From Buxus sempervirens (taxonomy: Eukaryota > Streptophyta > Magnoliopsida > Buxales > Buxaceae): a stretch of DNA of 64,000 nt. Below are positions 3,062-39,484 of this stretch, piece after piece. Made by a program: the position numbers and the translations under genes. Below the pieces are notes generated by a model. That model was given only the letters and a program-made list of their open reading frames with translations, did no database searches and had not been told where the DNA came from. Location: contig OX387182.1 in assembly GCA_947561395.2 (NCBI GenBank), positions 45,997,949 to 46,061,948 of the forward strand, read 5' to 3'. The number at the start of each line of letters is the position of its first letter. Within the stretch, counting starts at the first letter, position 1.

Positions 3062-3069
3062 TATTTATA
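3062..3069 (-). promoter_or_regulatory. TATA box in right palindrome arm
   Basis: This is the mirror copy of the box at 1979, reading TATAAATA on the minus strand and also facing the loop. The two boxes would drive convergent transcripts through the hairpin. Confidence 0.45.
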
Positions 3070-8018: not shown

Positions 8019-8199
8019 GTATCAAAACTACCTCAAAATACCTCCAACAGCAATAATTATCTTTACAAGATAATGGCTAATGGCAAGTTTTATAGTTAAA
8101 AAAATACATTGAAATGTTCACTTTGCTAAAACAAAACTTAAAAAGGGAAAAAAAAAAAAAGAAAAAAGAAAAATTTTGACTGTTATAACTAGCTAAGGT

Positions 8200-8490: not shown

Positions 8491-8501
8491 ATACAATCTT
8501 G

Positions 8502-11933: not shown

Positions 11934-14900
11934 TTAACGGGCTTCCATGGTAATCGTTACATCATTCACTGAAAAATGTATTGGCCCTCCCCTTCCTGAA
12001 TTTGCGTTTGCTTCTCTTCTTCCAATTGAAAAAGCAGGCTCTTTAGGCAAAGGTAGATATGCAGATTCATTGATGAGCATTGAGAAAACTTCAGGCGTGG
12101 TGGGTCTGTCAGTTGGACTTTCTTGCACACACAGAAGTGCCACTTGAATGTATCTTAACATTAAAGGTGCCAAAGGTCGATCAGACAATGCTGGATCTAT
12201 CAACTCCAATCCCCTGCCATTTATCCATAGCTCCCATGCCTAAAGGAATGCAAAATCACAGAAAAAATATGGTAAAATGAAATTGAATAAGAGATTAAAC
12301 TATAGTTAAGAGGATGACTAATTTGTTTCAATCGCTCACATATCCTAGAAGATAGAGAGAGTCATGACGGTAGAAGCCAGTGTTCTTCTTGCCACTCAAA
12401 ATCTCTAGCATCAATACTCCAAAGCTAAAGACATCAGATTTGACTGAGAAAAGGCCTTCCATGGCATACTCAGGGGACATATAACCACTACATTTTAGCA
12501 TTAAAAAATTATGTCAATAGCTGCAATGGATATTCTCATGCCTGGACACAAGCACCTTTGTGTCTGGGCATGTTAAGTGTTTGCCTGAGAATCAACATCT
12601 CTACTTACTAGGTTCCCACAATCCTGTTTGTGTTTGCTTGGGAATCGTTGCCTCCAAAAATTCTTGCCATACCAAAGTCTGATATTTTGGGGTTCATTTC
12701 ACCATCCAAGAGGATGTTACTTGCTTTCAAGTCCCTGTGAATAATTCTTAATCTGGAATACTGGTGGAGATAAATAAGGCCTTGAGAAATCCCCATGATG
12801 ATGTGAACCCGCCTTTCCCAGTCTAATAGTTGTTGCCGCTTTGGATCTGTCACAAGTTTTTATGCTAGAGATATAAACATGAAGCTTAAATATAAATTAG
12901 ATAAGTTTTCTCCCAAGAATGAACAAGTGAAATAAAGGGGAAAGAGGTGCATACAGGAACTCTGAGAGAATTAACTTCAAAATAACAGAAGAAGGGGAAA
13001 TAAAGTTTCTAGCATGCAGAACTACCAACCAAATAGTAAATAATCCAAGCTTTTGTAGGGCATGTACTCATAGATCAATATCTTCTCCTCTCTTTCAACG
13101 CAGCATCCTAAAAGTCTAACAAGATTCCTGTGTTGTAACTGTGCAATTAGTAACATCTCATTTCTAAACTCAGTCAGTCCTTGTCCAGACTGTTTTGACA
13201 GCCTTTTCACAGCTACTTCATGTCCATCCCTTAATTTGCCCTGTACGCGAAACATTTTAAGTTGTTTTTGACAATTTCCATCCATGAGAACTAAATGTGG
13301 AATGCAGAAATTTAATGTTACCTTGTAAACAGGCCCAAAACCACCTTGTCCAAGCTTATTTGCAACAGAGAAGTTATTAGTAGCTGCCAAGACACTTGAG
13401 AAACTAAATAAAGGTAACTTGGAACCCTGTTTCTCCACTTTCTGGAGCCTAATTTTGTCACTGTCATTGCCATGGTTTGCTTTAGTGCTTGTACCCAAAT
13501 CAAACGATAACAAGTCCTGGCTTGTTTCCCTTTCCCCTGCTTCATATAAATAAGAAGAGTTGTGATATTGAAGATGCAGAAATTGGTTTAGACTTTGTTT
13601 GAACTTTCTCTTTCGCATGTAGCATACAAAGAAACACAAAATAATCACTGCTAGAATGGTAGGTATTGTTACAATCCACCATATTGGCTTCTTAGCTTTA
13701 GTTTTAGCTTCATTATCAATCCTTCTTAGCTCCGAATCAGCAAGCCTGACATAGAGATCATTCCCTGAACTGTTTTTAAATTTCTGCAGGTTGAATAGCT
13801 CTCCATACCATATCGAACATTGACCATTAGCATAAGTGTAACCAGTGCAAGAACAGTTGTTCAAGCAAGCTAATTTGCATTGTTGATCACCAACAACTGT
13901 CAATGGTTGTGCATTTGCAGGTAATACTATATTGGATTGCAGTAAAAAACCATCTTCTTGCCCAGTGCCAAAAGTTTTGTTCTCACATTGCAGAGGGGTT
14001 TTTCTCTCACACCCTTTGTACCAATTATTCAAGCCCTGATTTGGCTGAAAGCGTGGTTTAAAACCATCCAAACATGCACAGGGGATTGTGTCTTGCTCAA
14101 GGCAGCTACCGAAAGCTCCGCATACACCATAAACCTCACACTTCTGCCTAGGTTGAGCCAAAAAAGGATCCCATTGCCCATAATTTATATTCCAGGCTAC
14201 TTGCTTGATTTGCCCTGACATATCGATCACTATTCTAGACAGTATGGATCGATTATAAACAGAATATGTGAAGTAGGTTTCTTCCTCATTCGAGATGAAA
14301 CTGAAGTTGTAGACATCATTTGATATCATTTCAGGTGCTCTGCCGAAAATTTGCCCATTCCAGGGTCCACTAGACCAGTACCTTTGGGATTTGTTCCACT
14401 GTAAAAAAAGTTGAGCTCCATATGGTTCCATGTGAAGAGAGTACATCCCATGTCCTGCATCTTCATCACCTTTCCATGAACTAAGGATGTGAGATTTATT
14501 GGTGATTTTGTTGAGGCCAAATTTTGAACCTGGAAGAAGTGTGTCTGTGGGGTAATCAAAACTCTGCCAAAGGAAACTAGATGTGTTGGACTTGGACAAA
14601 TCTCTCAAAACAAAATTTCCATCATCAAGAAGAACTGCCTCTCTAGATTTTCCCGGTTCAGGGTTTAGATTAGTTGACCAAACCTCAATTCCTGACTCCA
14701 TGAGTTGTAGATTACCCTCTTCAGAGAGGATTAGGTAAGAAGAAGATGCATTAGTTTTAGTGAGAGGTGTATCTCTATTGGCTACCCAAACCACAGTTTG
14801 CTTTGGTATTTTTTTGTACCAGATCCCTACATAGATGTTTGAGGAAGTCGTACCTAGTGAGAAGAAACCCAGTTCAAAAATGCCATCGTTAGATATCAGG

Positions 14901-15049
14901 GTCTGTCCCACCTTCGATGAGAGAGACTCGCCAGAAGCAATGGTGTCTCCGACACAGAGACTAGTTCTTGCCAAGCTTGTAAGTACGATAGAAAGGAGAA
15001 CAAGAACTTGCTTCTGGTAACCATTGCTGCAAAACACGCATGCAATCAC
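11934..15049 (-). CDS. G-type lectin S-receptor-like serine/threonine protein kinase
   Basis: Single-pass plasma-membrane receptor kinase of the S-domain (SRK-like) class. Predicted exons on the minus strand: 15049-13322, 13240-13030, 12846-12609, 12487-12340, 12239-11934. All introns are GT-AG (81, 183, 121 and 100 bp). The exons sum to 2631 bp, giving 876 residues and a TAA stop with no frame conflict. Domains: signal peptide about 1-34; bulb-type lectin about 35-150 (WVANRDTPL at 88-96); S-locus glycoprotein region about 205-320; EGF-like Cys cluster about 304-336; PAN-like Cys cluster about 385-440; transmembrane 456-478; kinase about 564-840 with GQGGFG, the AVK lysine near 588, HRDLKASN near 683 and DFG near 703. 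All catalytic residues are present, so an active kinase is likely. The exon lengths (211, 238 and 148 bp) are typical of the family. The ligand is unknown; roles in defence or self-recognition are family knowledge, not shown here. Confidence 0.93.
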
Positions 15050-17698: not shown

Positions 17699-19550
17699 TG
17701 TGAGGCATGGAAAATCAAACTAATGATTTCCTAGATCATTACACGGGCTCTATAAAAGGGGAAGAGTCGCCACCATTCCTTTTAGGTGTGAATGGACACC
17801 AAAATCATCAAATAAAATGAAAAAAGAGCAAACTTATAGTAAAAATAACTCCAAAAATGAAATAAACTAGAGATGGGTAAGGGGATTAAATTATGAATAG
17901 GGGAAGGTGTTAGGCACCCCCATTCATCCACACAAGGTGGTTGCCAAGTATTGCTCATGCTCAAAATAAAGAAAGCTTGCTAATTAAAACAATCAAAAGC
18001 TTAAAAATAATTAAACGCATGTATGATTCTCCACATGAGAAGTCCAATGAATTCTAGACACTCTTTGTGGGGATATCACTTCTAGGACATTCCCAATTAA
18101 TGAAAATCCAAATGAAACTTGAATACAAGCAAGTTAAAGCCAATCCGGAAAACTCGGTAAAAGATGGAGCCTTTTGACCATAAATCATTCAAATTAAATT
18201 CAAATTGAATGAGACCAATGCCAATTGAAATATTATGGCAAATATAAGGTTTAGGAAAATTTTCAAGTAAATCCGGTTAAAATCCTAAGAGTTATGCTTG
18301 TTTGAAATTCATTGTTATAAGTTGATAAAAGTAGCAAGTGAACAACTTTGAAATCCTATTTGTAGAGATTGGCTCCATATAAATCTTTGAAAATTTGCAT
18401 GAATAAAGTGTGAAGTGCCATATTTCACATGCAATAGGCCCCACACACAACTCCATTCGAATGTGACTTATATGATCCTCCGAACAGGCTTAGAGGATCA
18501 CTGATCAACCCAGAATTCTGCTATTGAGTAGTTCTGAGTAAATCAGACACACAAAACACAAATGAAAGCAAAAAATTTTGAAACCAACTAGATTTGAAAC
18601 TAGACTCACAAAGAAAAACACAGAACTCAAAATCACCTAAATCGGACTAAAACGAGCAAATGGTGCTCAGTCAAAGTGACAGGTTCAGCAGTCTGGCTTG
18701 AACTGACCTGTCGACTTTGATCAAATGGTGTCAAATATCCACTTCATAAAAATAGTTGAAATTTTACAGACAAATACTAGACAATCCCACCTTTCACATG
18801 TCTTTGGAATCACTCAGAAATTCATCCAAATGATGAAGATATGAGTGTTCTAAGATAGGGTACAGGTGCTGTCCAGATTTGAAATTTTTAAGTAAAATCA
18901 ACCCATAACAGTGGGTGTGTGCATCCAAACTCTGTGATATGAACTAAAATCTCTTGGAAAAATGTTGGAAAATCTCTAGAACAATATAGGGCAAGAATTT
19001 GGTTCAAAATTTCTCATTGATTGGAGAGAATGTACCCAAAACACCCAAATTGGAGCAAAAATACCCCAAGCAGAGAGATTAGACCATGAGGTCTTCTCTA
19101 CTCAAAGAGGAACTTGCTTGTAATCTCTGAAAATCATTAGGAAAAGTCCCAGAAAGATTTAGGGCAAGGATTCGGTTCATAAATCTCATTGATTAAGAGA
19201 ATGAACTAAATATGCCCATTTTGAGAAAGAAATCCCGATTTGAGATTAGGCTATGAAAAGCCTCCTCTCAAAGGGGATTACTTGAAATACATTAAAGAAT
19301 CATAAAAACTTGATCTAAGGCCATTTGTTTCAGATCTATCACAATGAATATGGATCTAAAATACAAGCCTATATCCCATCAAAACGATTGAGATGTGTGC
19401 ATGTGTGAAAATCATTTTTTTTCGAAGGGAATGGAGATCCAATACTATAAAGAGCATGGATCTTGGTATTCTCTCCAGAAAACGAAATCAAAAACATAAG
19501 ATTAATCAACACATCACGACATAAATCAAATAGGGGTTCTGTAACTAGGG

Positions 19551-20060
19551 TTCCATTCGCATTCTCGTTTCCCCTAGTTCTCTCTTCACGTTTTACGGCT
19601 AGAGATAATCTTGAGGTACTTTGAGTAGGGAAAGGGGTTTCAAACAACAGTAGGCCATTACGAGGGTTCTATGACTAAGGTTCTATTCCCATTCTCGTTT
19701 ACCCTAGGTCTCTCTTCACGTTTTATGGCTAGAGAGAATCTTGAGGTACTTTGAAATAGGAAAGGGGTTCCAAACACAAGCAAGCCATTACGAGGGTTCT
19801 ATGACTAAGGTTCCATTCCCATTCTCGTTTCCCCTAGATCTCTCTTCACCTTTTATGGCTAGAGACAATCTTGAGGTACTTTGAGATAGGAAAGGGGTTC
19901 CAAACACAAGCAGGCCATTACGAGGGTTCTATGACTAAGGTTCCATTCCCATTCTCATTTCCCCTAAGTCTCTCTTCACATTTTACGGCTAGAGAGAATC
20001 TTGAGGTACTTTGAGATAGGAAAGGGTTTCCAAACACAAGCAGGTCATTACTCTATAGAA
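19551..20060 (-). repeat. Four tandem units of about 130 bp in the D LTR
   Basis: Units start at 19551, 19681, 19811 and 19941. Each carries the minus-strand stem-loop tctctctagccgtaaaacg / tgaagagag or a close variant, which occurs twice in each A-family LTR. The period is 130 bp in the first three. Confidence 0.85.
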
Positions 20061-20390
20061 AGGAAGAAGAGGAAACTAACCCTAGAATTTAAAACAGAAA
20101 AATAAACAGGGTTCCAGGCTTACCTGGATTCCTGGGAGCAATGCAGTAGCGGTTCCCTTCTTCACTTGGAGCTCTTCAATCTCCAATCTTCTGGCCATTT
20201 GCTGGAGGAGGGGCCTCTTATTTATAGGCAAAAACTAGGGCAAAAGGGAACCCTAATGGTAGACACAAGGATGTGTCTAGAATCCCTCCACTAAACCCTA
20301 AGGCTATTTTCGAGAATTCTCACCTCTTAGACAGGGATAAGACAGTAAAAAGTGCAAACTTTCATAATTCCTCAATTTTGAGCAAAACAC

Positions 20391-20497
20391 TTGTATCCGG
20401 CAACTCAGGTCGGATACAAGCAATTATATTTGTATCCGACATACTTCATCGGATACAATAAAACTTATTTGTATCCGATGCATTATGTCGGATACAA
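20391..20497. promoter_or_regulatory. Dyad array in D LTR: three units, 7-bp spacer
   Basis: Three dyads of form TTGTATCCGAC-N7-GTCGGATACAA at 20391-20419, 20430-20458 and 20469-20497, with at most one mismatch between arms. A fourth, degraded one may follow at about 20508-20537. They lie about 110-220 bp inside the LTR start and upstream of the TATA box, so they are U3 elements. Confidence 0.85.
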
Positions 20498-20609
20498 ATA
20501 AGAACATTGTTATCAGGTTTTTTATGTCGGCTACAAAAGACAAAATGATTTTTAATGATTTTGGCCAATTATTCATTTTTTCCATGCAGTGCAATTTGGG
20601 GTGTCTACA

Positions 20610-20627
20610 ATTGCCCCTCTTTGCGAG
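20610..20627 (-). other. D polypurine tract
   Basis: On the minus strand this reads ctcgcaaagaggggcaat and directly abuts the LTR start, as expected for the plus-strand primer. It is similar to the A1 tract at 39903-39918. Confidence 0.8.
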
Positions 20628-20998
20628 AATTACAAAGCAATGAACAGCAAAGATTAGACAAACCCAAATTACATTTCCTTAATTTGCTTTGTTCAATTTT
20701 GCCAAACAGTTTTGGGTGAAGATTTGCCAAAAAGCCCTAACTTTAAGGGGGTATTTCTCCAAGTTGTCTTAAATTCCACTGAGCTCTCGTGGCTATGAAG
20801 TGGATTTTAAGCCCAAAATAAGATTTTTGAAAAAAAACTGATTTTGCAACAAACCAAGTTAAAAATTCACTGAATATTCCCTTTTTATTTTATTATTTTT
20901 TTCTTTTTTCTTTTTTCTTTTCTCTTTTTTCTCTTTTTTTTCTCTTCTTTCCTCTTTTTTTTTTCTTTTTCCCTCTTTTTTTATTCTTCTTTTTTCCT

Positions 20999-21066
20999 TT
21001 GTATCCGACATATTTGCTCGGATATCAAAACCTTCACTTGTATCCAACATAATTTGTCAGATACAC
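20999..21066. promoter_or_regulatory. Dyad array upstream of the first antisense gene
   Basis: Two dyads at 20999-21027 and 21038-21066 have the same half-site and 7-bp spacer as the D LTR. They follow a CT-rich tract (20880-21000) and lie upstream of the PMD-like gene that starts near 22397. Confidence 0.8.
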
Positions 21067-22396
21067 CAGGCTGTATTCACTCGCGCGCGACTGCGACTCT
21101 TCACTTCCTTTTTCTTCTTCTCCGAACACAACCCCCAGACACCAACATTTTTCCCAACTGTGACGCTCGATTTTCTCTTCTCCGGCAACTTCTATTGACT
21201 CCGTCGACTTCCATTGACTCCGACGACTTCCATTGACTCCAACGCCATTGGCTTACTTGCTGCGACCAAGCCCTAGCTCAACATTTTGGGTTTCCCTTCT
21301 TCCTGAAGTTCTCTGTTTTTCGGTGATTTCACTGCCCAATGCTATCACACCTACTCCGGTGACTTCTTTTGAGTTCCGGCGACTTGCTCTTCGCCAATCT
21401 GACTTCATACTTGCAATTAGACGTCCATCTCTCCACTGCTCTTGTCAATCAAACCGGGTTAGTGAGCACATTTTTTTTTTCTTCCTTTTTTCTGTGTTAA
21501 ATCCCTGAACATTTAATTGACTGCATACTGAGAACATTGGACTTCCTATCAGTAGTGATTTCCAGCTGAATTGCTCATTTCACATGTTTCTAATCACTTC
21601 TGAATTGTAATGCCATGCTGTTCTTTTTTTTTTCTTTTCTTTTTCTACAATTTGCTTTGACTTTCCAATCTATCTTGCCAATTCTTCATCTGCAATTCCT
21701 TAAGACTGATTGCCTGCATAACAGTAGCTCCACTTTAGAATTTTTAGATAAAGCTTGTTTCTTTGGTGATACCCTTAAATTGACAGCATTCGAGAACTTC
21801 GGATTGCCTGCCGGTGACATTTCCCACTGAATTGCTAATTGCATGATTTTCCCTTTGTGCATTTCCAATGCTTTTGAATTGCCGGTGGTGAAAAATTGTC
21901 TACTTTCAAATTTCCAAATACCATGCTATGATTTGTTCTTCCCAATCTGATTTTAGCATGCTTTTGATCAAGGTGGTGCTTCAACTGCCAGGGTCTTTTC
22001 ATGACTTGCCCTTGGGTAATCCTTGCCTTATAGATTCCATGTTGATTTCCTAGTTTGCATGACCACCCAAATTTACCCTACTTTGGTATATGCATCGATG
22101 CTTTGTATTCTGAAATTCTTCAAGAATGATTGTATGCAATTCCTGTTTTGATTGCTGAACAACTGGGACTTCTTTTTATGCAACATTGATTTTTTTTCTT
22201 TTACTTTGCTTTTGTGTTGCATATTTGTTCTGCCTCCCTCAGTACACCCTGAAATCACAACAAATAAGGAGAGAATTAGCTTTGTAGAGATCTTCAGGAT
22301 TAGGACAAAATGCTTTAGAATCAAAATTTCTGATAATCAATTAAACCCAAAATTGTAGTTGGACAGAGATATAAAACACTTCCCTGTTTCCTGTAG

Positions 22397-25060
22397 ATGG
22401 CTAGAGGTCGCTCTCGTGTGCGAAAGGAGGTTGATCCCGCTAATCAGCCCTCTTCGTCCCGAGCTAAGATCGAGTCCGATCCTAGTGTCACCTTATCTGA
22501 GCTGTCAGAGAGTTTCAGAGAGGGTTCTGGAGAGGGTTCTGCTAAGGTAGGCTTCTTTTTTCTTTCCCTTCTTCCTATTTTTTCCTTAAACAAACTTTCA
22601 CCTCTTCGCTTTTGACTTTTAGCCTGTTGTGGCTCCCGCTCGAGGTCGGGGTAGAGGCCGAGAGAGAGGCCGTGATGGAGAGAGGGGCCATGGCAGAGAG
22701 AGGGGCCGAGGCCGAGTTAGAGCTTCAGATCAAGAGGGCCTTGCTTCGGATTTCGACTTAGATTTTTCAAAGGAGTTGAGAGCTTCTGTTCATGACACAG
22801 AGCTCCTTAGTGGCTTGGATTGCCACCCCTCTATGTGCATCCGGGCTGATATTCCTCTTCCATATCCTCCCTCTCATCTACGGGGCAGTTGGGGGAGGTT
22901 CAGCGAGTTGGTTCAGACGCTTTCTCCGGCACTTAGGCGTGAATTCAGTAGGTGCTGCTTTGACCATTTTCTCCGTATCCCATCGTTTCGAGCTGACCGC
23001 CCTCTCATCTTTGCCATGATGGAACGATACTTCCCCGATACACAGTCCTTCCATCTGCCAGATGTTGAGTTGGGGATTCGTTCTTTGGACTTTGTCAAGA
23101 TCACCGGCATCCTTCTGGTGGGGCGGGCTATAGTGATGGACCAGCCTTCAGGTGCAAACATCAGTTCTCTCCTGGGTTATGAGGTTCTGCCCGATGATGC
23201 TTGGGACGGGAGGAGCGGCCGTCTTTCTATCAACTGGCTGCGACAGAGCCTTACTGATCACTTTCATAGGAGGCATGAGACCATTACCGGGGATGACGCG
23301 GCTTTCGCACCTATTTTCCGACATGTTTTCTTGCTAATGCTTGGGAGCTATTTCTTCCAAGAGGACACGACTGGTGTTAGTCCTCTTTTCCTAGATGCCC
23401 TGAGAGACTTCCGCCAGACCAAGCAGTTGGCATGGGATCGGCTTATCTACGGGACCATCCTGGCTGGATTATGCCGAGTGGTTCGAGGTTTGGCTGCTTC
23501 GAGGGGTGACGGCGTTAGTTGCCAGTTCTTCTGGCAAATCCTGTAGGTACTGGATACATCTGCTTTGTCTTATCCCCCAAAATTTTATCTTCTTCATCCT
23601 TGAGAGCTCATAGTACATGATGCTTTTGATCGGGATCTCCAATGTGAGCCCTATCAGTGCTTCCTTGGGAGGCTTGGTAGGGTTATGTATCTAGGAGAGC
23701 GCCTGTACTATCAGCACACCGGTGTACCTCGCACTCCAGTTCCTTCTCCTCCTGTTGGTCGCAGCACCCTCCTACCCGGGTTTGATATTGACCAGTTTGA
23801 TCATTGGGAGGATGTGGAGGGACTTACAATAGCTAGGGACTATGATGAGTGGATCAGGAGGGTATCCATTGGGTGCCTGATGGATCGACCCACTCGCACT
23901 GGAGTGACAGAGATCAGCGGGATCTACATCCAAGTTCATGACGACACTGTAAGTTACCTTCTCTTATCTCATTTCCTTTAATTCAGCATTTATGATTCTA
24001 ATCCCGTTCTTATTGGCAGGTAGAGGAGCTGAATGCTCTGAGGGATCGGTTTCAGACCGATCGAGCTGCTATCGAGGACATGATTGCTGAGCACGATGTG
24101 AAAGTGGCTCAGAGGGATGCTCGGATTAGAGAGCTGGAGACTTTGATCCTAGAGAGTGACAACCGGATCTCAGACTTGGAGGCTGAGCTCGAGACCCGAC
24201 AGGTATATAGCTCTTTGTAACTTTATTTCTTTTATTTCTATATTCCACTGCTGCTTTGATATGAATTATTTGACTTTTGTAGGACCATTCCCAGGGTCCA
24301 GCTAGTGCTCCTGCTTAGGTATGCTTGATTTGGTATCTTTCTTTTCTGCAATCTTGACATTGATTTTCATCCATTTGTGCTTTTCAGGAGTTTGACCATC
24401 TCGGACCCTCTACCTCTACGGATATCGCCTTGAGTTCTACTAATATTGATGATATCATGGTATCTGCAGCGACGCGGGGTCGCAGGAGTCTCGTCACTGC
24501 TGAGCCAGATCCTCCTATTCCTGGTCCATCTCTAGTTCCTGATCTCAATGACATCCCAGCTCCATCTCCTGCTCCTGCTGCTGATCCTGTCAGTACATCA
24601 TCTCTTGTGATGGCTCCTGCTCCTGCTGATGATGTCCCTGGTAAGTTTAGTTCCATCTCTTTGGTTGGTTATGGTATTTCGATTTCTGACTTCATTTCCA
24701 TTAATCCAGCTGTCCCTGTTCCTGATCCTCCTTCTGCTACTGCCGAGACTTCTGGAGCTGCGGGAGTTGAGACTGCTTTGACTGAGGATCCAGTTGAGTC
24801 TGAGGCGGCTATCCCTCCGGTTGAGCCTGCTCCTACTGAGCCTGAGGCTTCTTCATCAGACTCTGTTCCTACTGGCCCATTCCCAAACAACTCGGCTTAC
24901 AACTATTCATACTAGCTTCAGTCCATTCTGGGCCGGATGCCTCGCCACGTCGCTGATCGTATCATTTCCCATGTTTTTAGGCACGACGATCTCGAGGTTA
25001 AGGCCACAGAGGGGCACATGGCAGAGGACGTGGGGATGATCCTGCAGAGGAGTAGTAGAT
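22397..25060 (+). CDS. Antisense PMD-like gene 1 of element D
   Basis: This lies opposite to the retroelement coding strand, between pol and the 3' LTR. It appears to have several exons: a basic Ser-rich N-terminus, an Arg/Gly-rich stretch, a plant mobile domain-like core (MMERYFPDTQSFHLP then VELGIRSLDFVKITG, where usual PMDs read ...W.PET.TFHLP.GE.TITL.D...l.Gl), a coiled coil near 24020-24205, and an Ala/Pro/Ser-rich C-terminus to about 24915. The PMD (PF10536) occurs in host MAIN/MAIL1 proteins and in transposons. Extra ORFs in this position are known from Tat-lineage elements. The copy is old and appears to have one or two breaks. The function is unknown. Confidence 0.7.
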
Positions 25061-25256
25061 TAGGATCTTTTGTATATTTACATCATCCTTGTACAAATGA
25101 GATTCATATATGGTAAAAAAAAAACTTTTCATTTATTCCCTTGTTCTCTTGTTCATTTCTTTTCATTTTTTGCAATTATGAAATGTACACAGGTAATACA
25201 GGACAAAATTTCGGAACCCTTTCTTCTTTCTCTCTTTTTTTTTTGTCTTTTGTTTT

Positions 25257-25402
25257 TTGTATCCGATATCTCAGATCGGATAAAGGTAAAGTGTTTTGTA
25301 TCCGACTGAAGATATCGGATACAAAACATTTTTCTTGTATCCGACAACTTCTATCGGATATACAAAAAACCTTTTGTATCCAACCTGATATGTCGAATAC
25401 AA
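25257..25402. promoter_or_regulatory. Dyad array upstream of the second antisense gene
   Basis: Four dyads at 25257-25285, 25296-25324, 25335-25363 and 25374-25402. All have a 7-bp spacer and TTGTATCC(G/A)A(C/T) half-sites. Their start-to-start period is 39 bp in every case. They lie about 130-270 bp before the start of the second PMD-like gene. Confidence 0.9.
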
Positions 25403-25528
25403 CCATTTATATTAAAAAATAAAAGGGCTCAGGATGTGCGTCATTTTGACGACTTTTTGAGATTAGTAACCCCCTTTTCTCCATTTTTCTTCCTCCCCTT
25501 GATTCTTAGCAAGCTCCATTCATCCCTC

Positions 25529-25935
25529 ATGGCCTCCGAATCATCTTCTACTCCATTATTGTCTGTCAATGAAGCCTCCCCTGCAAAACAACCTTTTAGA
25601 GCAAAACCCCCTAATCTCACTAGGTATAATCCCGTAGATTCATTTTACACTAGGTAGGTTAGCTCTATGATCCTTGATGAAGAGATCAAATGGGATTCCA
25701 TCCACTTAGGTCACGTCCTACTCATTCCCAAAATTCCTTTTAAGTGGGAAATCATTGAAGCCATGATTGGCCATTGGGAGCCTCAACTAAACCTCTTTCA
25801 ATTTGGTGACAAAGAGATGACCCCAACGATTGAAGAGATTGAAACCATCCTTGGCTTGAGGTTCGTAGAGAAAGTGGTAAACCCTCCCCTCAAGCCTAGC
25901 TACAAAAGACAGGCTTCCACCTTTCTGGGCATAGG
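25529..25935 (+). pseudogene. Antisense PMD-like gene 2 of element D, 5' part
   Basis: It starts MASESSSTPLL and continues with PPNLTRYNPVDSFY, LDEEIKWDSIHLG and EMTPTIEEIETILGL, closely matching the single antisense gene of A1 (37598-39348). The PMD-like core is recognisable. The gene is split here by the B1 insertion and continues at 47788. It is a fossil with several breaks. Confidence 0.8.
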
Positions 25936-26072: not shown

Positions 26073-27878
26073 TGTAGACACCCCAAATTGCACTACAAAA
26101 TGAGAAAATAATGAAAACATTAATGGGAATTTAAAAACATGTCAAAATTGCATGAAAATCAATAATTCAAGCTTTGACCGTATTGTCACTACGGGCTAAG
26201 CATGCCCAAATTTTGAATACGGGCACGCAGCGCCCATAGTAAATATACGGACATCGATGGACCGTAAATCATTTACGGGCACTTTAACTCATGCGAGTTT
26301 TATTTTTCTCTCAATCTCTGAGCTTTATCTTTAGTCCAATATCTCTTTAAATGAGCGAATTATATATTTTATTCGTGTGAAATATCTTTATGGATAAAGG
26401 ATGGGCATTACCTTGTGTTTAACTCAAACTGAAACTCTATCTTGCCAAACCTTGGACCAACCATACCCCTGTGTTTACCTATAAATAGAGGGCCTTTCCT
26501 CAAGCAAAAGGCCACGAAATTTTGAAGTCCAAGGAACTCCAAGAGAAGAGAAGAACCCCTGCTGCCTTGCTTGCTCAATCCAGGTAAGTACCTTTTCCCT
26601 TTTTATTTTCTGTCTTCAATTCTAGAAGTAATAGGATCTTCTCCATTGCTGTAGAATAAGGCCATCTTCTATTCTGTATTACTAAACTTGTCTCTAAGTA
26701 CCTCAAGAGTCTCTCTAGCCGTAAAACGTGAAGAGAGAGCTAGGGGAAAGGGGAACAGGTGGATCCCTAGAATAGAACCCCATATCTGTTTTTTTCCTTT
26801 TTTCTAGAATAAAGCCTTTGATTTTGTTTGTGTACCCAAACCTATCTCCAAGTACCTCAAGAGTCTCTCTAGCCGTAAAACGTGAAGAGAGAGCTAGGGG
26901 AAAAGAGAACAAGTGGATCCGTAGGGTAGACCCCCATGTGCTCTAATTTGTGAGATGTGGCTGCTTTGAATATCATAATCATGTTTTAATGATTTTATTT
27001 TATATCTGGATGAATCCTAAGAGTTCATGATGTTTATAGCATAAGATCCCCAATTTTTTTCTAAAATTTGGATTTTTGCCACTTTTGCACCTACAGCACT
27101 GTTTTCGTGATTTTTGTGATTTTAGGCTAAGATCCTGGATTTATCATGATCAATATGATAGATCTAGATCCAGAAGCCTGAAAGTAAGTTCTAGGGTTTC
27201 ATGATGTTGTTTTTTATTTGTTTTCACTTTTGAGAGAAGACCCTACAATCTCAGTTCTCCCCTTTTGATGTTCTTCATCAATTTGGGTATTTTTGGTTTT
27301 GATTTTTTGATTTAATGTGAAATTTGGGCTTTATCTATGTCCTGGACTGTTCAAGTTCAATTTTGAAATATTTTATAAAAATCATATTTTTCTAGATTTC
27401 TAGAATTTAACTTGAAGACCAGATTTTTGGATTTTTCACTTTAAATTGATTTTATTTGATTTTATCTCAATTTTGTTTTGATCATGAAACCCTAGGAATG
27501 GTATGATCATATTTGAAAGTTCTGGATCAATCAGGCTATGCATATGAAAAAACCATACAATTTTGTCTTTTTGTGATTTTTTTCGTGATTTTTATAGCAA
27601 GCCTTTTCCTTTATTTTAACATGAACAAATACCTGGCAACCACCTTGTGTGGATGAATAGGGGTGCCTAACACATTCCCCTATTCATAACCTAATCCCCT
27701 TACCCATCTCTGGTTGTTTTTTCTAGAGGGTTATTTTTACCCTAAATTTGCCTTTTGTGCTTATTTGATATTTTGGTATCCATTCACACCTAAATTGGAT
27801 GGTGGCGACTCTTTGTTTTAACCAATCCCATGTGATGATTGAGGAGGTCATTAAATTGATTTTTTCCCATGTCTCACA
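26073..27878 (+). repeat. A1 5' LTR
   Basis: TGTAGACACCCC...CTCACA, 1806 bp. ACGGGC-type dyads lie at about 26176-26280, TATAAATA at 26480-26487, and a splice-donor-like atccag/gtaagt at 26584. Two copies of the tctctctagccgtaaaacg stem-loop follow (first at 26710-26738, second near 26866). Confidence 0.93.
26191..26265. promoter_or_regulatory. Dyad array in A1 5' LTR
   Basis: Units at 26191-26209, 26219-26237 and 26247-26265 have the form ACGG(g/a)C-N7-G(c/a)CC(g/a)(t/a). The equivalent cluster lies at about 40030-40140 in the 3' LTR and 54057-54130 in A3. The placement (U3, 120-190 bp from the LTR start) matches the D array, but the half-site differs. Confidence 0.8.
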
Positions 27879-27880
27879 AC

Positions 27881-27900
27881 TGGCGACTTTGCTGGGGACT
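27881..27900 (+). other. A1 primer-binding site
   Basis: tggcgactttgctggggact begins two bases after the LTR end. The A3 equivalent is tggcgactctgctggggact at 55738. Tat/Ogre elements are reported to use a tRNA-Arg type primer and this sequence is of that type; I could not check the tRNA. Confidence 0.8.
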
Positions 27901-29129
27901 TGTGGATTTGAGCCTTTTGGTGTTTGTTCATGTTTTTGATATTTTTGGATTTGCTTGCTATTTTGTGTTTTTAGCATGTCTTTGTTTTACTTGCTGTTTG
28001 GTGTTCTTAAGCATGTTGGGTATGTTTTAAATCTAAATTATTGCTTAAGAATTCATGGGGGTAGAAACATGCTTAATTTTGATGCGTAGGGGAGGTTCGT
28101 TTTGCTGAACCATGCTTATTTCTTGCTATATTTCTATAATAGCATGTTTTAATTTTCAGCGTGATCTCCATGAGGTTCTTTTTGGGTGAAAAAGCATGAT
28201 CATATGTTTGCATGATTGGATGATTTTTATGAGCATGTTTTAGGTGCTATAGGATTGCTTTATTTACTTGTTTATTTTAAATATGCTTTCCTATTATGCC
28301 TTGGTTTGTTAATGCATGGCTGCGAAAAGAGTGGCAAGGGTTTGGGACGTTGTGAATGCACCCTATTTTTACAATGCACTGTGCACATTTTATTTTTTTA
28401 CACAGCCTACCCTTAACCTATAGGAAGTTGAACCTGAATGTGTGTAGCTTGGCGCAAAGAGGTCAATACTTCGAAAAGAGAAAGTGAAAACATTCACCTT
28501 AGAACTTTGGGCCAATAATGTGATGATAATGTGGATCTGGGATTCTGGTCATCACTAGGCTTGAGTGCTAAGTTGCCATTAGGCCAAAACCCAAAACCCC
28601 TACGCTTGAAGGTGGAGTTACACGTTTTTGGCTAAAGTACACAATTACGTGGGGATATGGGTTTGTAAATTGTGGGAAGGCCGTTTGCATGGCTTACAAA
28701 CCAGGGCATAATGCGGATGCCATATTGAAGGTAAACAAGGTAACAAGGTAACCTTAATTTTTGCATTATTTTCATGTCATAGGGGTGTCATGGTGCCCAT
28801 TGGTTCCGGATAAAATTGGTCCCAAAATATGCATATTTCCTAAAAATGGAGTAGCCCATAGGAAGAGTTCTAACTCTGTTTAGAATCCATCCTACCCAAT
28901 ATTCATACAAGAGGCAACAAAAGGGTACCAAATTCTTGAGTATGGTGTCAATTTGGGGGGGATATGTGCCCTCCTAAACAAGTGTTTTGCAAATAGGCCA
29001 AAGTCCACTTTGGGACAGTTTAGAAGCTTTGCAGTGGGTGAACCGTAGGTTTGGATGAGCAATCAAAGTGATCAAACCATGTAAAAGCTGGAAAAATATA
29101 ACAGAGTTCCGTAAAACCGCGTTTAGTAC

Positions 29130-29232
29130 ACGGGCTGGGCTTGCCTGTATTAGTTATACGGGCTGGGCTTGCTCGTGTTTTCCATACGGTCATGGCTTGC
29201 TCGTAATTTGAATACGGGCATGGCCGAACCGT
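29130..29232. promoter_or_regulatory. Dyad array in A1 leader, four units
   Basis: Units at 29130-29148, 29158-29176, 29186-29204 and 29214-29232, with an exact 28-bp period and 7-bp spacers. The half-site is ACGG(g/t)C, as in the LTR. The cluster lies between the primer site and gag. Confidence 0.88.
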
Positions 29233-29400
29233 ACTGTGTATGCGGTTTTCGCGGAATATTCAGTTTTAATCAGTTTTTCCCACTAACATCTTCCTTTAAC
29301 CTTTAAATAATGATAAAGGGAAATGAGTTTGAATAAAATGATTCAAAAAAAAACAAAAACAAAAACAAAATAATTGAATAAAAAAAATGTGAAAGAAAGG

Positions 29401-30090
29401 CTCCTTGGGCCTCTGAAAGCCTTTGAATTTCAAACTTTTTCAAAACTCCTGGGCCTCTGAAAGCCTTTCAATTTCAGACTTTTTTTTTTCAAAACTCCTT
29501 GGGCCTCTGAAAGCCTTTGAATTTCAGACTTTATCAAAAATCTTTGGGCCTCTGAAAGCCTTTGAATTTCAGACATTTTCTCAAAAATCCCTCTGGGCCT
29601 CTGAAAGCCTTTGAATTTCAGATCTTTTTCTTTCGGGCCTCTGAAAGCCTTTGAATTTTAGATCTTTTTCCTTTGAGCCTTCTAAAGCCTTTGAATTTCA
29701 GATCTTTTTCCTTTGGGCCTCTGAAAGCCTTTGAATTTCAGATCTTTTTCCTTTGGGCCTCTGAAAGCCTTTGAATTTCAGATCTTTTTCTTTGGGCCTC
29801 TGAAAGCCTTTGAATTTCAGATCTTTTTCTTTGGGCCTCTGAAAGCCTTTGAATTTCAGATCTTTTGAGCCTCTGAAAGCCTTTGAATTTCAGACCTTTT
29901 TCAAAAATATCCCTACGCCTCTGAAAGCCTTTGAATTTCAGACCTTATCAAAAATCTCTGGGCCTCTGAAAGCCTTTGAATTTCAGACTTTTTCCAAAAT
30001 ACCCTTGGGCCTCTGAAAGCCTTTGAATTTCAGACTTTTTCAACAAAAAAAATCCTTGGGCCTCTGGAAGTCTTTGAATTTCAGATCCTT
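29401..30090 (+). repeat. Leader tandem array in A1, about 16 units
   Basis: Units of about 40-50 bp built on gggcctctgaaagcctttg plus aatttcag, each with an internal dyad (ctgaaa...tttcag, 9-bp loop). They lie upstream of gag. A3 carries about 13 units at 57246-57795. Confidence 0.92.
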
Positions 30091-30318
30091 TCTCTCTTTT
30101 TGTGGGACCTATTGGAAGCCCTAGAATATTCCAGCAATTCAATTCAAAAAAAAAAGAAGCAAATAAAGAAACAAATCCAAACTCGTGTTAACCCAGCTTG
30201 CGCATAGGCATTCATAGGCATGTGAATGAGATTAAATTGGCACTGATATTTTCGTTTCAATCCAGGTACCAATACACTTGCAATCATAGCTCCTATAACC
30301 AGATCAAGAGCTCGCGCC

Positions 30319-33300
30319 ATGAATCCCATGGAGACTGAAGCTGATGCTCCTCACCTAGATATTGTCTTGCTACAAGAGCAAGTGGCAGGACTGGCCCGAA
30401 TGCTAGAGAACATACTGTCAGTGCAGGCCCAACAACTGCAGGCCCAACAAGTGCAGGCCCAGAACCAAACATCCACTTCCAATCCAGTACCTCCACCCCA
30501 AATCAATACTCCACCTCCAGTTCAACCCATTCCTGAACCCGTTCATGAAACCACCCCTGAACCTATACTGATCAGGGATGAGACAATTGAATCGGATAAA
30601 GCTAAAGAAAAGGAAAGGATGAGGGAAGAAGTTGAAAGGAAGTTCATGCACAGACTAGAAATGATCCAAGATGAACTGAGGGAGGTAAAAGGGGTAAACA
30701 ACTTCGGGGGCACTAACTTTGAAGACTTGTGCCTGTACCCTAATGTCAACCTGCCGGCCAAGTTCAAGTGCCCAGACCTGGACAAGTATGATGGCACAGG
30801 CTGCCCCATGAGCCATCTGAAGTTTTACTGTGGTGCCTTATGCCAGTTTGGGCGAGATGAGGGTGTTCTGATCTAGCTCTTCTAAAGGAGCTTGACTGGA
30901 ACCGCCTTGAGATGGTTTGCCACTCTAGACCATGGAAAGATTAGAAGATGGAATGACCTAGCAGATGCCTTCCTAGCTCAATACCGGTTTAATTCAGAAA
31001 TTGTGCCAGACAGGTACGATACAATGAGGATGAGTAAGGGAAGGGATGAATCCGTGAGATAGTATGCCAACAGATGGAGGGAGACTGCCTCTCAAGTTAG
31101 GCCACCTATGCTAGAACAGGAGATGATTTCTACCTTCATCAGCACTTTTGGTCAACCATTCTACAGCCACCTGGTGGGTCAGACCACTACTAATTTTGCT
31201 GCCTTAGTTCAAGTGGCCAACCGAATAGAGGACGGAATCAGGTCAGGTAAAATAATTGACCACTCTGCTATGGTCAGTCAACAAGACCCTAATCTAAAGA
31301 AAGGAAGTGGGTTGAAAAAGAATGGGAACAAGAAAGAGGGTGAAGTAAACATGGTTCAGCCACCATCATGCCCTAATAAGCCCATACAAATCAACATACC
31401 TGCTCATTTCCCTACTCCATCTCCATCTACCCAAGCCCCTATGAGGGTTAATGTTCCAGCAGCACCTTCAAACCAAAAAAGGGTTTTTACTAAGGAGGAA
31501 AAGAATGCCTATTTCACAGCAAGGAGAAATAAGGTTTTCACCCCTATTCTAATGTCTCCTTCTCAGTTGCGGCCCACTTTATTGCAAGCAGGGTATATCA
31601 CTTTAAGAGGACCCAATCCGAATGCATCTAAGGGAAGAAATTTTGACCCCTCCACCACTTGTGATTACCACATGGGTGCACCTGGGCACCCTACTGGCAA
31701 GTGCTGGCCTTTGAAACATACCATTCAGGATTTACTGGACCAAAATACCCTGTCTTTCAATACAGGGGCTCCCAATCCTCCCAGAACAGATATTGGACAA
31801 AACCCGTTGCCTCAGCATCATGGGGTAGGCCCCTCTAATGTCATAGGGGTCATTTCTTCTGATGAAATAACCTTTGACCCATCCCAGTTAATTGCTCCAA
31901 TAGGGACAACGGTCAAGGTTTATTTTGACAGAAGAAATAAGGAAAGAGAAATAAATGTGATTTCAAAATGGAATGATAGTGCTGCTAGGAACATTAGTTC
32001 TTCTCTGGATCGGGTCTCATCTCTCATGGCCCAAATGAATATAGCCAAACCAACTTTGGTCATCAATTGCAGTCCATCCACCTTTACTTCACCCTTTCAG
32101 TCTAAACCACCAATGGTCATAAACTGTGACCATCCTAATGCATCAGTCACTTCTGTAACCCCTCAACCAAAACAACTTCCACCATTGGTTGTAAATGTTC
32201 CTTCTACTCAAATTTCATCATCCAAGTCTAAACTTCCTCCCTTGGTGATAAATGTCCCCAAGCCTTCCTACTCTGAATCGGCTGTACCATGGAACTACAG
32301 TGAAGCTTTTACCACTACATGCCCTACAGCTGAAAGCAAGGAATAAGTGAACCTCATGATGAGGTCAAGAAAATGTGTAGGGGTGGAAGAAAAACAAAAG
32401 GAGACAGAGAAAGAAAAGAAGAAAGAGGAAAAAAATGAAGGAAAAGCCAAGGTAGGGGAAGATGCCCCCCAGGTAATTGACAGTGAGGCTACTGACCTCA
32501 TTAAAATCATAAAAAAGAGTGAGTTCAATGTTGTCGAGCAGTTGAACAAAGTCCCTGCCCAGATCTCAATTCTGGGATTATTGTTGAATTCTGAAAAACA
32601 TAGGGACTCCTTGCTGAGGGTACTTCAGGGGGCCCATGTGCCTAAAAATATTGAACCAGACCAACTAGGCTGGATGGTTGGTCAAACTTTATCCCATAAT
32701 GTTATAACCTTTTCTGAAACAGAAATTGGCCCAGCAGGGTACCATCAGGTTGATCCTTTGCACATAGCTGTGCTCAATAAGGGTTGCATGATAGTCCGGG
32801 TTTTAATTGATAATGGGTCTGCTCTCAATTTCTGCCCATTAATAACCTTTGTTAAGCTCAATCTGGAGCAAAACAAAATAAAACAAAATGGAAGAATCAT
32901 AAGAGCATTTGACAGCTCTAAGACACACTCCCTAGGGGAGGTTGAACTGCCGGTCACAATTGGACAGTATATTTTTAACATCACATTTGAGGTGATGGAT
33001 ATACCTGCAGCCTTCAACCTACTCCTAGGAAGGCCGTGGATTCATACAGCTAGGGCTATACCATCTACCCTCCACCAAAGAGTCAAATATATTAGAGGGC
33101 AAAAGGTGATTACTGTCCTAGCTGAAAATTTGGTTCCTCCTATGTGGTCCCCTGATGTACCCTATGTAAACATGGAAATGACTACTGACAAGATGGCATT
33201 TCACTCTTTCCAGTTTGAAACTGTTAATTTTATACCTGGGGGGTATCAGGAAAAAGAAGGAAAGTTGAGCTGTGCTAAGAAAATGGTCAAGAATGTGCTA

Positions 33301-36300
33301 GAAAAGTACAACTTTCACCCTGGAAAAGGTCTGGGGGTTAACCTATAAGGAAGGATAGAACTGGTAAAGGTTAAAAAGAGGGTCCACAGAGCAGGATTGG
33401 GATCCAGGCCAAGGAACTGGAAAAGATAGAGGCAGACAGAAGACATGAAATTCCCTCATATCAGGGAAACTTATCCAAGGCTTTCTCACATGATTCAACT
33501 GTCTCCTCCTGAGGATCAGTCCAAACCCCCATACTACAATTTCAACCCATTCCAGAAACCCAAGTCCTCAACCGTGCAACCATATGTTCCACCTCCACCT
33601 CCACAAGCATTGGGTGGGCCTAGGCCACAGGCAGAACAAGAGCAAGATTTTTCTGAGGAAATTGGAGCATTTTTTGCCATGATAGAAGGCAACCAAAAGG
33701 AAGGAGCAGAGGAGCTACCTTTCATTGATTGGGCTGCAGTAGAAGTTCCATCTGGAACCAGCCCTACAGAAGAAGCAGGTGATGAAACTCACCCATTATT
33801 GGTGATTTCAAATGCAGACCCCGAGCTTGAGGAGCAGGCTTGTACCCCTACCCCAGATTCTTTTATTCTGAACAATTGGGAGGAAACTCCCCTTACTTTT
33901 GAAGCCGAGTTTGTTTGGCAAACAGACATGGCTTCCAACAAAAAAAACTCCATTAGTGGAATGCCCTTTTCCTGAAGGTTTTAATGAGCCTCTGTCTTCA
34001 GGGAAAGATTTTGTAGAAGGCTCTCAAAAAACACAAAAAGATTTTCCAATTTTTTATAGAAAAGATAAATTTTTCAAAAAGGTCCAAACCATTTATGAAC
34101 CATATAAGCAAACGGAATTGGACCGGGGTGAGTATGACTTCGACCTTGAGCTTGACTTTGACCTAATGGGGGTTGAAGAAGAGACCGAGGACGAAGAAGA
34201 CGACCCTCCAAAAGAAATCACATATCAATTGGAGCGCCATGAAAAGGGGTTCCAGCCCAATGTCAAAGAGACCATATCAATAAACCTAGGGACCGAAGAT
34301 GACCCAAAATAGTGAAGATTGGGATATGCCTATCTAAGGTACAGCGGAAGGAAATGATACGGTTCTTGGCTAATTATGAAGATGTGTTTGCATGGTCGTA
34401 TCAGGATATGCCAGCGTTAGACACAGACATGGTTGTACATAGGCTACCCATTCTACCAGGTGTTAAGCCAGTTAAGCAGAAATTGAGAAGGTTGAAACCA
34501 GAATGGACATTGAAGGTCAAAGATGAAGTGGTTAAACAATTCCAAGCAGGATTCTTGGCAGTCTCCACGTATCCTGAATGGCTTGCAAATATAGTACCAG
34601 TACCAAAGAAGGATGGAAAGGTCAGAATGTGTGTAGACTATAGAGACTTGAATAAGGCAAGTCCAAAGGATGATTTTCCACTCCACACATAGACATCTTG
34701 GTGGACAACACTGCTGTACATAGCATGTTCTCATTTATAGATGGCTTCTCTGGGTATAATCAGATTAAGATGGCGAAGGAGGATCAAGAGAAAACGGCTT
34801 TCATTACACCTTGGGGTACCTTCCACTACACTGTCATGCCATCTGGGCTTAAGAACACTGGGGCAACCTACCAACGGGCCATGACAGCCTTGTTCCATGA
34901 TATGATCCATAAGGAGATGGAAGTTTATGTGGATGATATGATAGCTAAATCATGTGAAGAAGAAGACCATTTGATCAATTTGAAGAAGGTATTTGACCGT
35001 TTTAGGAAATACAGTCTAAGGCTTAACCCTGCAAAATGTGTCTTTGGGGCTACATCAGGAAAATTGTTGGGCTTTATTGTAAGTAGAAAGGGAATTGAGA
35101 TCGACCCAGCCAAATCCAAGGCAATAATTGAAATGCCATCACCTAGAACGGAGAAGGAAGTCCGTGGTTTTCTTGAAAGGATTCAGTACATAAGCCGGTT
35201 CATAGCACAACTCACTGCTATCACCAGTATTTGGAAGAAATAAGCAATAAACTTACTCGAATTTCCTTCAATTATATGCCAAGGGCCAAAAATCAGTTTA
35301 CAGATGCACTAGCCACATTGGCTTCAATGGTTAGTATGTCAGAAGGTGTTGATATTAGACCACTGGAAATTGAAGTCAGGAAGGAACCAACCTATTGCCT
35401 TGTTCTAGAAGAAACCCCAGAAGAAGAAGTACCATGGTTTCAAGACATTAAGAACTTCCTAAATGATCGAAGTCTGCCAGAAAACGTCACTTCTACAGAG
35501 AAAAGAACAATACAGAGGTTGGCAGGCCAGTTTTTATTAAGTGGTGGGCAGTTGTACAAAAGATCACACAATGATATCTTGCTCAGATGTGTTGCCAAGA
35601 CCAAGTCAGAAAGGTTAGTTGAAACTGTACATGGAGGAGTTTGTGGACCCCATATGAACGGGCACATGCTTGCCAAGAAAATCTTGCGATTGGGATATTA
35701 CTGGTCGACGATGGAGCACGATTGCTATATACATGTCAAAAGGTATCATTTATGCCAAGTGTATGCAAATAACAAGAATGCACCCCCAAGTGAATTGCAC
35801 AACATGACATCCCCATGGCCCTTCTCCATGTGAGGTATAAACGTCATTGGAATGATCTCTCCAAAGGCATCAAATGGACATAGGTTTATACTTATAGCAA
35901 TCGATTACTTCACCAAGTGGGTAGAAGCAGCTTCTTATGTAAATATTACAAGTAGTCACATTCTTAAGTTTTTGAAGCACAATATCATTTGTCGCTATGG
36001 TTTGCCGAATGCCATAGTAACAGACAATGCTTCAAACCTTAAGAACAAGGACATGAGGAAGATGTGCGAACAATTTTAGATCACTCATCATAAGTCAGCT
36101 CCGTACAGACCAAAGATGAATGGGGCAATAGAAGCAGCAAATAAAAATATAAAGAAGATCATTTAGAAGATGGTAGTGAGTTTTAAAGATTGGCATGAAA
36201 TGCTGCCACTTGCTCTACATGCCTACAAAACCTCGATTCGGACCTCTACTGGGGCAACCCCGTATTCCTTAGTATATGGAATGGAAGCAGTTTTACCAGT

Positions 36301-36682
36301 GGAAGTAGAAATACCTTCACTGAGAGTGCTAATGGAAGCTGAATTAGAAGAAGCTGAATGCGTATAGTCAAGACATGATCAACTCAATTTAATAGAGGAA
36401 AAACGATTAAAAGCGCTTTGTCATGGCCAATTGTATCAGAAAAGGATGGCCAGGGCTTATAATAAGCAGGTGAGGCCTAGAACGTTCTAAGAAGGAAATT
36501 TGGTATTGAAGAAAATTTTACCCTTTTTGGAAGACCTTCGTGGAAAATTCAAACCAAATTGGGAGGGACCTTATGTGGTCAAGAAGGTCCTATCAGGGGG
36601 TGCTCTCATCTTAACAGAAATGGATGGAAAAGATTTTCCTGAGCCAATTAATTCTGATGTAGTAAAGAGATCTTTTTCTTGA
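30319..36682 (+). pseudogene. A1 gag-pol region, fossil
   Basis: Parts in order: gag (about 30319-32345; starts MNPMETEADAP; capsid-like block with LYPNVNLPAKFKCPDLDKYD; Cys/His block CDYHMGAPGHPTGKCW), aspartic protease (about 32560-33100, DNGSA), reverse transcriptase (about 34300-35220, YVDDM) and integrase (about 35500-36680, with the zinc-binding region and IDYFTKWVEA). It is close to A3 in sequence. It is clearly defective, with around ten breaks. Confidence 0.9.
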
Positions 36683-37597
36683 ATGGATATTACTAGGAAA
36701 TGATTTGAGGCCATATTTCTATATCTCCTAAAATTTTGATCCCTAGTCAAGCCATTTTGAGCCTGTTTGTCTTCTTTGATAAACCTAAAACTGGACTTAC
36801 AGTCTTATACTGGGGCAAGGCCAATAGGGGCAAAACCAATAGGGGCAAAAAGAAAAAAAATAAAAAAAAATAGGGGCAAATGAAAGCCAAATACAAAAAA
36901 CGGAAATGGGATTAAATACATCATGATTGTAAGTCCAGTTGACCTATTTTCACACTTAGAGAATTTTGAGCCTTTAATACCTTTTCTTTCATAAACCAAG
37001 CTTAGCCTTTGTTTCGTCCTATTCTTAAGCCCTCGGTGATTTTATTATATTCATTCAACTTTCAGAGTAAGATTGGTGATGACGGAATGCAGAAGCCGGC
37101 CCTAGTGAAAACCGTAATTGGCACTAGGGGCAATAGGGGCAAAAAGAAAAAAAAGAAAAAAAAAAGAGAACCAGGGGATGAGTTAATCATGTGGCCTAAG
37201 TTTGAAGTCAGCATGAGCACGGGAAATTGAGCAAATTAGCAAGGTCAGTCATGAAGGAAAAGCCATTTGGGGATGACTCTAAAGGTCGCAGGATAGACAG
37301 ATTTGGTCTCTCCCTATTGCTTGGACTACCCTTTTCATTATTCAACCTGATTTTAATTCCTTTGATTATATGTGATTAAGTGTTTTGGATCAACTTTCAA
37401 AAAAAAAACTATACTTTGGCCAGTGATGAGAAATAAAATACTTTTTCATAAAACTTATGTTTTTATAAGCATCTGAGAATTCTGAGGCCAATAATATAAA
37501 ACCTATTTTTGAATTAAATCTATTGTGTTTCCACTATTGGAGTTTTCTTTTGTATAAAAGTATGAAAAAAAGAAAAAAAAAGGAATAAAAGAATCTA
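36683..37597. other. A1 untranslated spacer between integrase and antisense gene
   Basis: Low-complexity spacer with repeated aataggggcaaaa words and A-rich runs (36820-36880 and 37130-37165). The D equivalent lies at about 49070-50073. No gene is seen. Confidence 0.6.
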
Positions 37598-39348: not shown

Positions 39349-39484
39349 GGAAGCACCAAAGAAGACAAGGAAAGCAGAAAACGGAAAGCTCAGGGAGTTT
39401 TGAAACTTTAAAAACGTCACAGTGATGTTCCCCATGAGTTTATATAGAAAATTCGAGACGAACTCCAAAATCCGTAAAATCAGT

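Follow-up and report, generated by a model that had tools for sequence, protein, structure and literature searches.

The closest described relatives of the system considered here belong to two kinds of plant transposable elements: the VANDALs, which are MULE-type DNA transposons, and long terminal repeat (LTR) retrotransposons such as Retand, Grande and Ogre. In the VANC/VANDAL systems of Arabidopsis, short family-specific motifs are clustered in noncoding regions of the elements and differ between related families; the motif repeats turn over fast, and their co-evolution with an element-encoded factor was proposed (PMC5735166, PMC10398659; these and the following papers are cited for the excerpts at hand). 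In Retand and Grande, an antisense gene is located between pol and the 3' LTR, in Grande with its own promoter, and the plant mobile domain (PMD) was reported in 57% of Ogre elements (PMC11963269, PMC7264820, PMC6317226). Antisense TRP28 genes were found in 97% of the clusters of recently active Retand elements, and their proteins were suggested to bind DNA and to act in regulation (Vicient 2025, PMC11963269), while the role of antisense genes in Retand-type retrotransposons of plants is described as unknown (PMC11963269, PMC7264820). Here, we describe a 64-kb window (the whole stretch of DNA analyzed, from contig OX387182.1 of Buxus sempervirens), which by its gene content is plant DNA with nested LTR retrotransposons. 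One of them, element D, contains arrays of inverted half-sites in its LTR and upstream of two antisense genes, and the related elements B and C contain arrays of another motif at corresponding places. We firmly regard these arrays as family-specific putative DNA-binding sites.

With at most 3 mismatches allowed, the dyad TTGTATCCGAC-N7-GTCGGATACAA was found 9 times in the window but not once in 100 shuffles. Element D holds eight of these matches (20391, 20430, 20469; 20999, 21038; 25296, 25335, 25374), one lies at 42664, and a further D unit with 4 mismatches, the ninth of that element, starts at 25257. The relevant features of element D are as follows:

17699-20609, minus strand: 3' LTR of element D; the minus-strand purine tract adjoins 20609, and the far end is placed by similarity to the end of the B LTR
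20391-20497: array in U3 of the 3' LTR, 3 dyads with a 39-bp period, 165-271 bp upstream of the TATA-like box of the sense (minus) strand at 20226
20508-20536: decayed fourth LTR unit, right arm with 1 mismatch and left arm with 5
20610-25935, minus strand: 3' internal region of element D, which resumes at 47783 and runs to about 53938, where C begins
20999-21066: array before antisense gene 1, 2 dyads, about 1.3 kb ahead of the ATG
22397-24915, plus strand: antisense gene 1; exons inferred by eye, possibly reaching about 25060, with in-frame stops
25257-25402: array before antisense gene 2, 4 dyads with a 39-bp period, ending just ahead of a TATA-like box at 25408
25529-25935, plus strand: antisense gene 2, first part (DUF7745/PMD), with an in-frame stop; split by the insertion E, it resumes at 47783

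The same DNA had been the subject of a preliminary description, which counted nine units in D (three in the LTR, two and four before antisense genes 1 and 2), with spacers of constantly 7 bp but all distinct in sequence and an exact 39-bp period in the four-unit array. All of this agrees with our scan, and the other two D arrays have the exact 39-bp period as well. Each unit consists of an 11-bp arm, a 7-bp spacer, a second 11-bp arm and a 10-bp linker; no unit is perfect, every one of the nine having 1-4 arm mismatches. The TAT triplet is present without change in every D arm, T precedes CCGA in 18 of 18, and the final base, position 11, is the least conserved (C in 11, T in 6, G in 1). When pairs of half-site matrices were scored at gaps of 0-19 bp, gap 7 yielded 13 pairs with a score of at least 12, and each of the other gaps none or one; with the cut lowered to 8, gap 7 had 14 pairs and no other gap more than 3, the scan being partly circular because the matrices were derived from the gap-7 D units. 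All 14 gap-7 pairs of the latter set fall inside LTR or antisense-promoter arrays. Since the same unit stands at the LTR and before both antisense genes, the earlier proposal that the dyads tie the LTR promoter to the antisense promoters is upheld. For the array before antisense gene 1, no TATA-like box was found in 21060-21470, and the leader intron was inferred by eye. The D LTR also contains four 130-bp tandem repeats at 19534-20051.

D-type arrays were also identified in two places outside D, in the insertion E and in a D-like LTR at the start of the window:

Insertion E in D: solo-LTR-like, bounded by TG..CA and flanked by the 5-bp duplication ATAGG at 25931-25935 and 47783-47787
42625-42731: E array, 3 D-type dyads (42625, 42664, 42703) with a 39-bp period; both arms of the third show like changes
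8-114: array of the window-start D-like LTR, 3 decayed units (8, 47, 86) with a 39-bp period; this LTR ends at 186

The third E unit (42703-42731) has the arms GCTGATCCGAT and GTCGGATCAGC, which depart from the D motif in the same way; this may point to arm-to-arm correction or to an altered dimer site. In a blastn comparison of E with the D LTR and the D 3' internal region, the matches (E-value up to 1e-3) were all within or adjoining the arrays. In the window-start LTR, position 11 of the arm is A in 6 of 6 arms, where D arms have C, T or G.

The preliminary description took the D units for a conserved two-fold DNA site rather than for the product of simple repeat copying, and the sequences between the arms bear this out, with no copy signal in either spacers or linkers. 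For the 12 units of D and E, spacer identity is 0.319 within arrays and 0.310 between them (0.288 expected from composition), and linker identity is 0.377 and 0.374, respectively (0.314 expected). As identity is no higher within arrays than between them, these units are not recent tandem copies. In the nine D units, the two arms of one unit differ as much as arms of different units (1.89 mismatches in both cases, p 0.73), so that what is kept in D is the arm sequence and not the pairing; covariation of pairs was ruled out as a conserved feature of D on the same grounds.

Elements B and C are related to D, with 78-89% DNA identity in pol and antisense gene 2. The LTR starts of B and D align, and the CCTATAAATA box lies 383 bp (D), 407 bp (B) and 398 bp (C) from the LTR start. 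The material compared comprises one D copy and two copies of the B/C family, the antisense region of C lying beyond the window edge. The D motif is missing from B and C, whose best full dyads carry 9 and 8 mismatches. Instead, these elements contain TACGGGC/GCCCGTA half-sites in alternating orientation with 14-bp steps and a period of 28 bp, located at places corresponding to those of D: in U3, in the leader that precedes gag and, for B, also ahead of the antisense gene:

26073-41713: element B, inside E, with the target duplication GGTCT
26176-26280: B 5' LTR, U3 array, 8 alternating TACGGGC half-sites, 14-bp steps
29129-29233: B leader array (5' LTR to gag), 8 alternating half-sites, 14-bp steps
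38650-39348, minus strand: B antisense gene, first exon, DUF7745 (E 1.4e-20) / PMD
39470-39572: B array before the antisense DUF7745/PMD gene, 8 half-sites, 14-bp steps, two of 13
40023-40127: B 3' LTR, U3 array, 8 alternating half-sites, 14-bp steps
54042-54145: C 5' LTR, U3 array, 8 half-sites, 14-bp steps, one of 13
56984-57088: C leader array, 8 alternating half-sites, 14-bp steps

Each of the six B/C arrays has 8 half-sites with 0-2 mismatches, and the only departures from the step are the three of 13 bp (two before the B antisense gene, one in the C LTR). Pairs of oppositely oriented half-sites at +14 bp number 22 in the window, and all 22 are in these arrays; in 100 Markov resamples the mean was 0.02 and the maximum 1. 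Single half-sites with at most 1 mismatch are not confined to the arrays, which hold 37 of 99. The B antisense gene has a TATA-like box on the minus strand at 39444-39446, and the distance from the TATA-like box to the ATG of antisense gene 2 is about 121 bp in D and about 98 bp in B. At these corresponding sites, the arrays of B and D are unrelated in both sequence and period. By a post hoc comparison, CCG-N11-CGG occurs in both motif types, and the other core spacings, 25 and 14, are 11 bp apart.

The leaders of B (29402-30090) and C (57248-57804) also contain a second array of 40-47 bp tandem units with TCTGAAA-N9-TTTCAGA, which has a conserved spacer and is a copy-type repeat. An unbiased scan for inverted motifs ranked these leader repeats, along with some other clusters such as those near 10621, 7381 and 47041, higher than the D-type and B/C-type arrays or next to them.

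Conservation within the arrays follows the half-sites. Between the LTRs of B and C, 9 of 56 half-site columns and 24 of 48 spacer columns differ (Fisher p=0.0003; the Fisher tests reported here are few and uncorrected for multiple testing); with the 3' LTR of B in place of the 5' LTR, the counts are 11/56 and 22/48 (p=0.006). When the half-site mask was slid along the LTR and leader comparisons of B and C, the divergence minimum fell at most 1 base from the true register. For the window-start LTR against D, the minimum occurred twice: at shifts 0-1, and also at 19-22, since there the mask of two arms comes to lie on arms once more. In the first two unit pairs of this comparison, 11/44 arm positions and 23/34 spacer and linker positions differ (p=0.0002). 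The two LTRs of B, whose differences arose by mutation after the insertion, have changed more at the half-sites than in the remaining aligned stretch (6/56 v 13/472, p=0.01), so that the motif seems to decay fast when unselected, as expected of a CpG-containing site.

These data establish the arrays with their locations, the conservation of the motifs and the distinctness of the motifs in sister families; from them we infer binding and dimerization and, beyond them, the identity of a protein and the sign of its effect. On balance, the arrays are probably the sites of a dimeric, cooperative DNA-binding factor at the LTR and antisense promoters, a factor that is most likely element-encoded and whose specificity would have switched between sister families. 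Each sister family would have its own site: half-sites TGTATCCGA(C) in 11-7-11-10 units in D, and TACGG[G/T]C in 7-7 alternation in B/C; one dimeric or cooperative factor per family would act on both the sense LTR promoter and the antisense promoters. Since the sites differ together at corresponding positions of sister elements, the matched trans factor may be expected to have changed too, and a simultaneous site change at several promoters is managed most easily by an element-encoded protein. With moderate confidence, we therefore take the reader of the arrays to be probably such a protein. The leading candidate is the PMD antisense protein, whose chance of being the reader we place somewhat below even; as the factor, it would close an autoregulatory or anti-silencing loop, as VANC does on VANDALs. 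More broadly, we propose tentatively, and with slightly more doubt than belief, that Tat/Ogre-type elements may contain private family circuits, in which a PMD-class antisense protein would bind the arrays of its own LTR, leader and antisense promoter, site and reader would switch together, and insulated copies of the circuit would coexist in one genome.

The candidate proteins themselves were characterized by their domains. A PMD in an extra open reading frame, a frequent but not universal mark of Ogre-like elements, is found in antisense genes 1 and 2 of D and in that of B. The product of D antisense gene 1 has an RG-rich N-terminus, a plant mobile domain (PF10536, E 1.1e-9) and a proline-rich acidic tail; a coiled-coil-like exon of this gene gave sub-threshold Pfam matches only. 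A sequence search of PDB with the B antisense exon returned a single match, which at E 0.31 we attribute to chance. Relatives of the B antisense protein were confirmed neither in the viral_contigs nor in the genome_contigs collection, as expected of plant-free collections. In viral_contigs, the dyad core occurred in 5 stretches with one palindrome each, also taken as chance, and the triple half-site of B in none.

Several observations weigh against a family-specific, element-encoded reader. Despite their different motifs, B and D share 77-83% identity in the protein pieces of antisense gene 2, and a tblastn search with three pieces of D antisense gene 1 found no homologue in B (best E 1.1) or in the part of C within the window (0.17). 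No single encoded protein thus fits neatly: with gene 2 so alike and gene 1 missing from B, this element would depend either on a small number of changes in gene 2 that alter specificity or on a factor provided in trans. AlphaFold was applied to the PMD portion of D antisense gene 1 as a single sequence and to the B exon together with three D pieces; the models had mean pLDDT of 42 and 35, were unusable and revealed no DNA-binding fold. The insertion E, otherwise without detectable similarity to D, carries the D-type motif, which a shared host factor would explain too. On the side of conservation, the B/C half-sites (9/56) do not differ significantly from the LTR outside the array (89/406, p=0.38), so that the half-sites stand out only against the spacers; the leader comparison of B and C has the same direction but alone is not significant (2/49 v 6/42, p=0.14). 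The third pair of units in the comparison of the window-start LTR with D, which involves the decayed D unit at 20508, is reversed (9/22 v 6/17), and all three pairs pooled give a weaker contrast (20/66 v 29/51, p=0.005).

Of the alternatives, the one that survives best, unlikely as we consider it, is that host transcription factors, a different one in each family, were recruited to co-express sense and antisense transcripts. The arrays of the LTRs and of antisense gene 2 do precede TATA-like boxes, the D-type motif is shared by D and E, which have no other detectable similarity, and CCG cores are present in both motif types. Two host factors would, however, be needed at equivalent positions of sister elements, with spacings that are strict but differ between the two. 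A particular host candidate had been raised in the preliminary description, in which the CCGAC string of the D arm was suggested to attract DREB-type factors. The DREB/CBF core is RCCGAC, and the likeness ends with that string: the last C is kept in only 11 of 18 arms, CCGA is preceded by T and not by a purine in 18 of 18, the invariant TAT lies largely outside the core, and the B/C consensus does not contain CCGAC at all. DREB/CBF factors were consequently rejected, as their core is not kept in the D arms and fits neither the D logo nor the B/C motif.

Much less probable is a role of the arrays as RNA or cruciform hairpins, acting in packaging, dimerization or the production of small interfering RNA, instead of as protein sites on duplex DNA. 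Predicted folds are strong in all six stretches (z -4.0 to -11.6), as follows from inverted arms. The arms of E change alike within units (1.7 mismatches within and 4.8 between units, 3 units, permutation p 0.16), and when D, E and the window-start LTR are pooled (14 units), the within-unit mismatch is 1.93 v 2.76 across units (p 0.0026), a difference that family differences alone could produce. Hairpins are contradicted by the equality of within-unit and between-unit mismatch in D, by the recurrence of near-identical arms among D arrays up to about 5 kb apart, and by the lack of any Rfam match at gathering score in the window. Least credible of all, and given hardly any weight here, is a functionless tandem-repeat expansion maintained through recent copying or hairpin-templated correction: related elements often have tandem arrays (32 of the Retand representatives in the excerpts of PMC11963269) and the B/C leader units partly share spacers (TGGGCTT), but the likeness of D/E spacers and linkers within arrays does not exceed that between arrays, and conservation tracks the half-site register in three comparisons.

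The assignment of element D to the Tat/Ogre type is based on its domain layout together with the PMD. Its pol domains comprise RT_RNaseH (51979-52188), RVT_3/RNase_H (51586-51975) and integrase (50683-51582), that is, an extra RNase H lies between RNase H (RH) and integrase (INT), as in Ogre-like elements of the Tat clade of Ty3/gypsy; the order RH, extra RNase H, INT is the Ogre/Retand layout (PMC6317226). D thus appears to be a Tat/Ogre-type element, a grouping that spans Ogre and Retand without assigning it to either. Among other features of the window, the end of the C region (63570-64000) matches the parts of E that flank the B insertion on both sides, so a second E-type copy seems to be present at the window edge. 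Nested in E at 43905-47011 is a repeat of about 3.1 kb with TG..CA ends and ACCCC on both sides, perhaps another solo LTR. A near-perfect large inverted repeat at 1456-3591 (97% identity, about 1 kb per side) is possibly a foldback element or one with long terminal inverted repeats. Host-type genes are represented by a KIB1-4 beta-propeller fragment and part of an S-locus lectin receptor kinase (8077-8649 and 13022-15049).

Among the literature matches listed, none describes such arrays or anti-silencing in LTR retrotransposons, which does not by itself establish their absence from print, and none of the titles listed for the D arm strings looks related. The passages of Vicient 2025 on palindromes, promoters and binding sites (PMC11963269) describe no target sites, and the excerpts on Retand, Grande and Ogre mention neither binding sites nor a motif common to LTR and antisense promoter. 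D and B resemble Retand and Grande in having an antisense gene between pol and the 3' LTR, and many Ogre elements in having a PMD, and tandem arrays were reported from that region of Retand; the antisense genes differ, with TRP28 in Retand, as far as the excerpts go, and PMD/DUF7745 in D and B. For such genes the arrays would supply the missing cis half, namely concrete family-specific targets against which a DNA-binding role can be tested. The comparison with VANC/VANDAL, already drawn in the preliminary description as a precedent, has become stronger, because the sister families B/C and D have different motifs at corresponding sites. As in VANDALs, B, C and D carry dense arrays of short family-specific motifs that differ among related families. 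The VANC21 motif YAGTATTAY, according to the excerpts cited above, occurs in one orientation and at high density, whereas the half-sites here are inverted or alternating with fixed spacing. The carriers differ too: B, C and D have LTRs and gag, reverse transcriptase, RH and INT domains, whereas VANDALs are not LTR retrotransposons, and the factor proposed for B, C and D is a putative one. If this proposal is true, the sequence-specific self-regulation of VANDAL transposons would extend to a major lineage of LTR retrotransposons.

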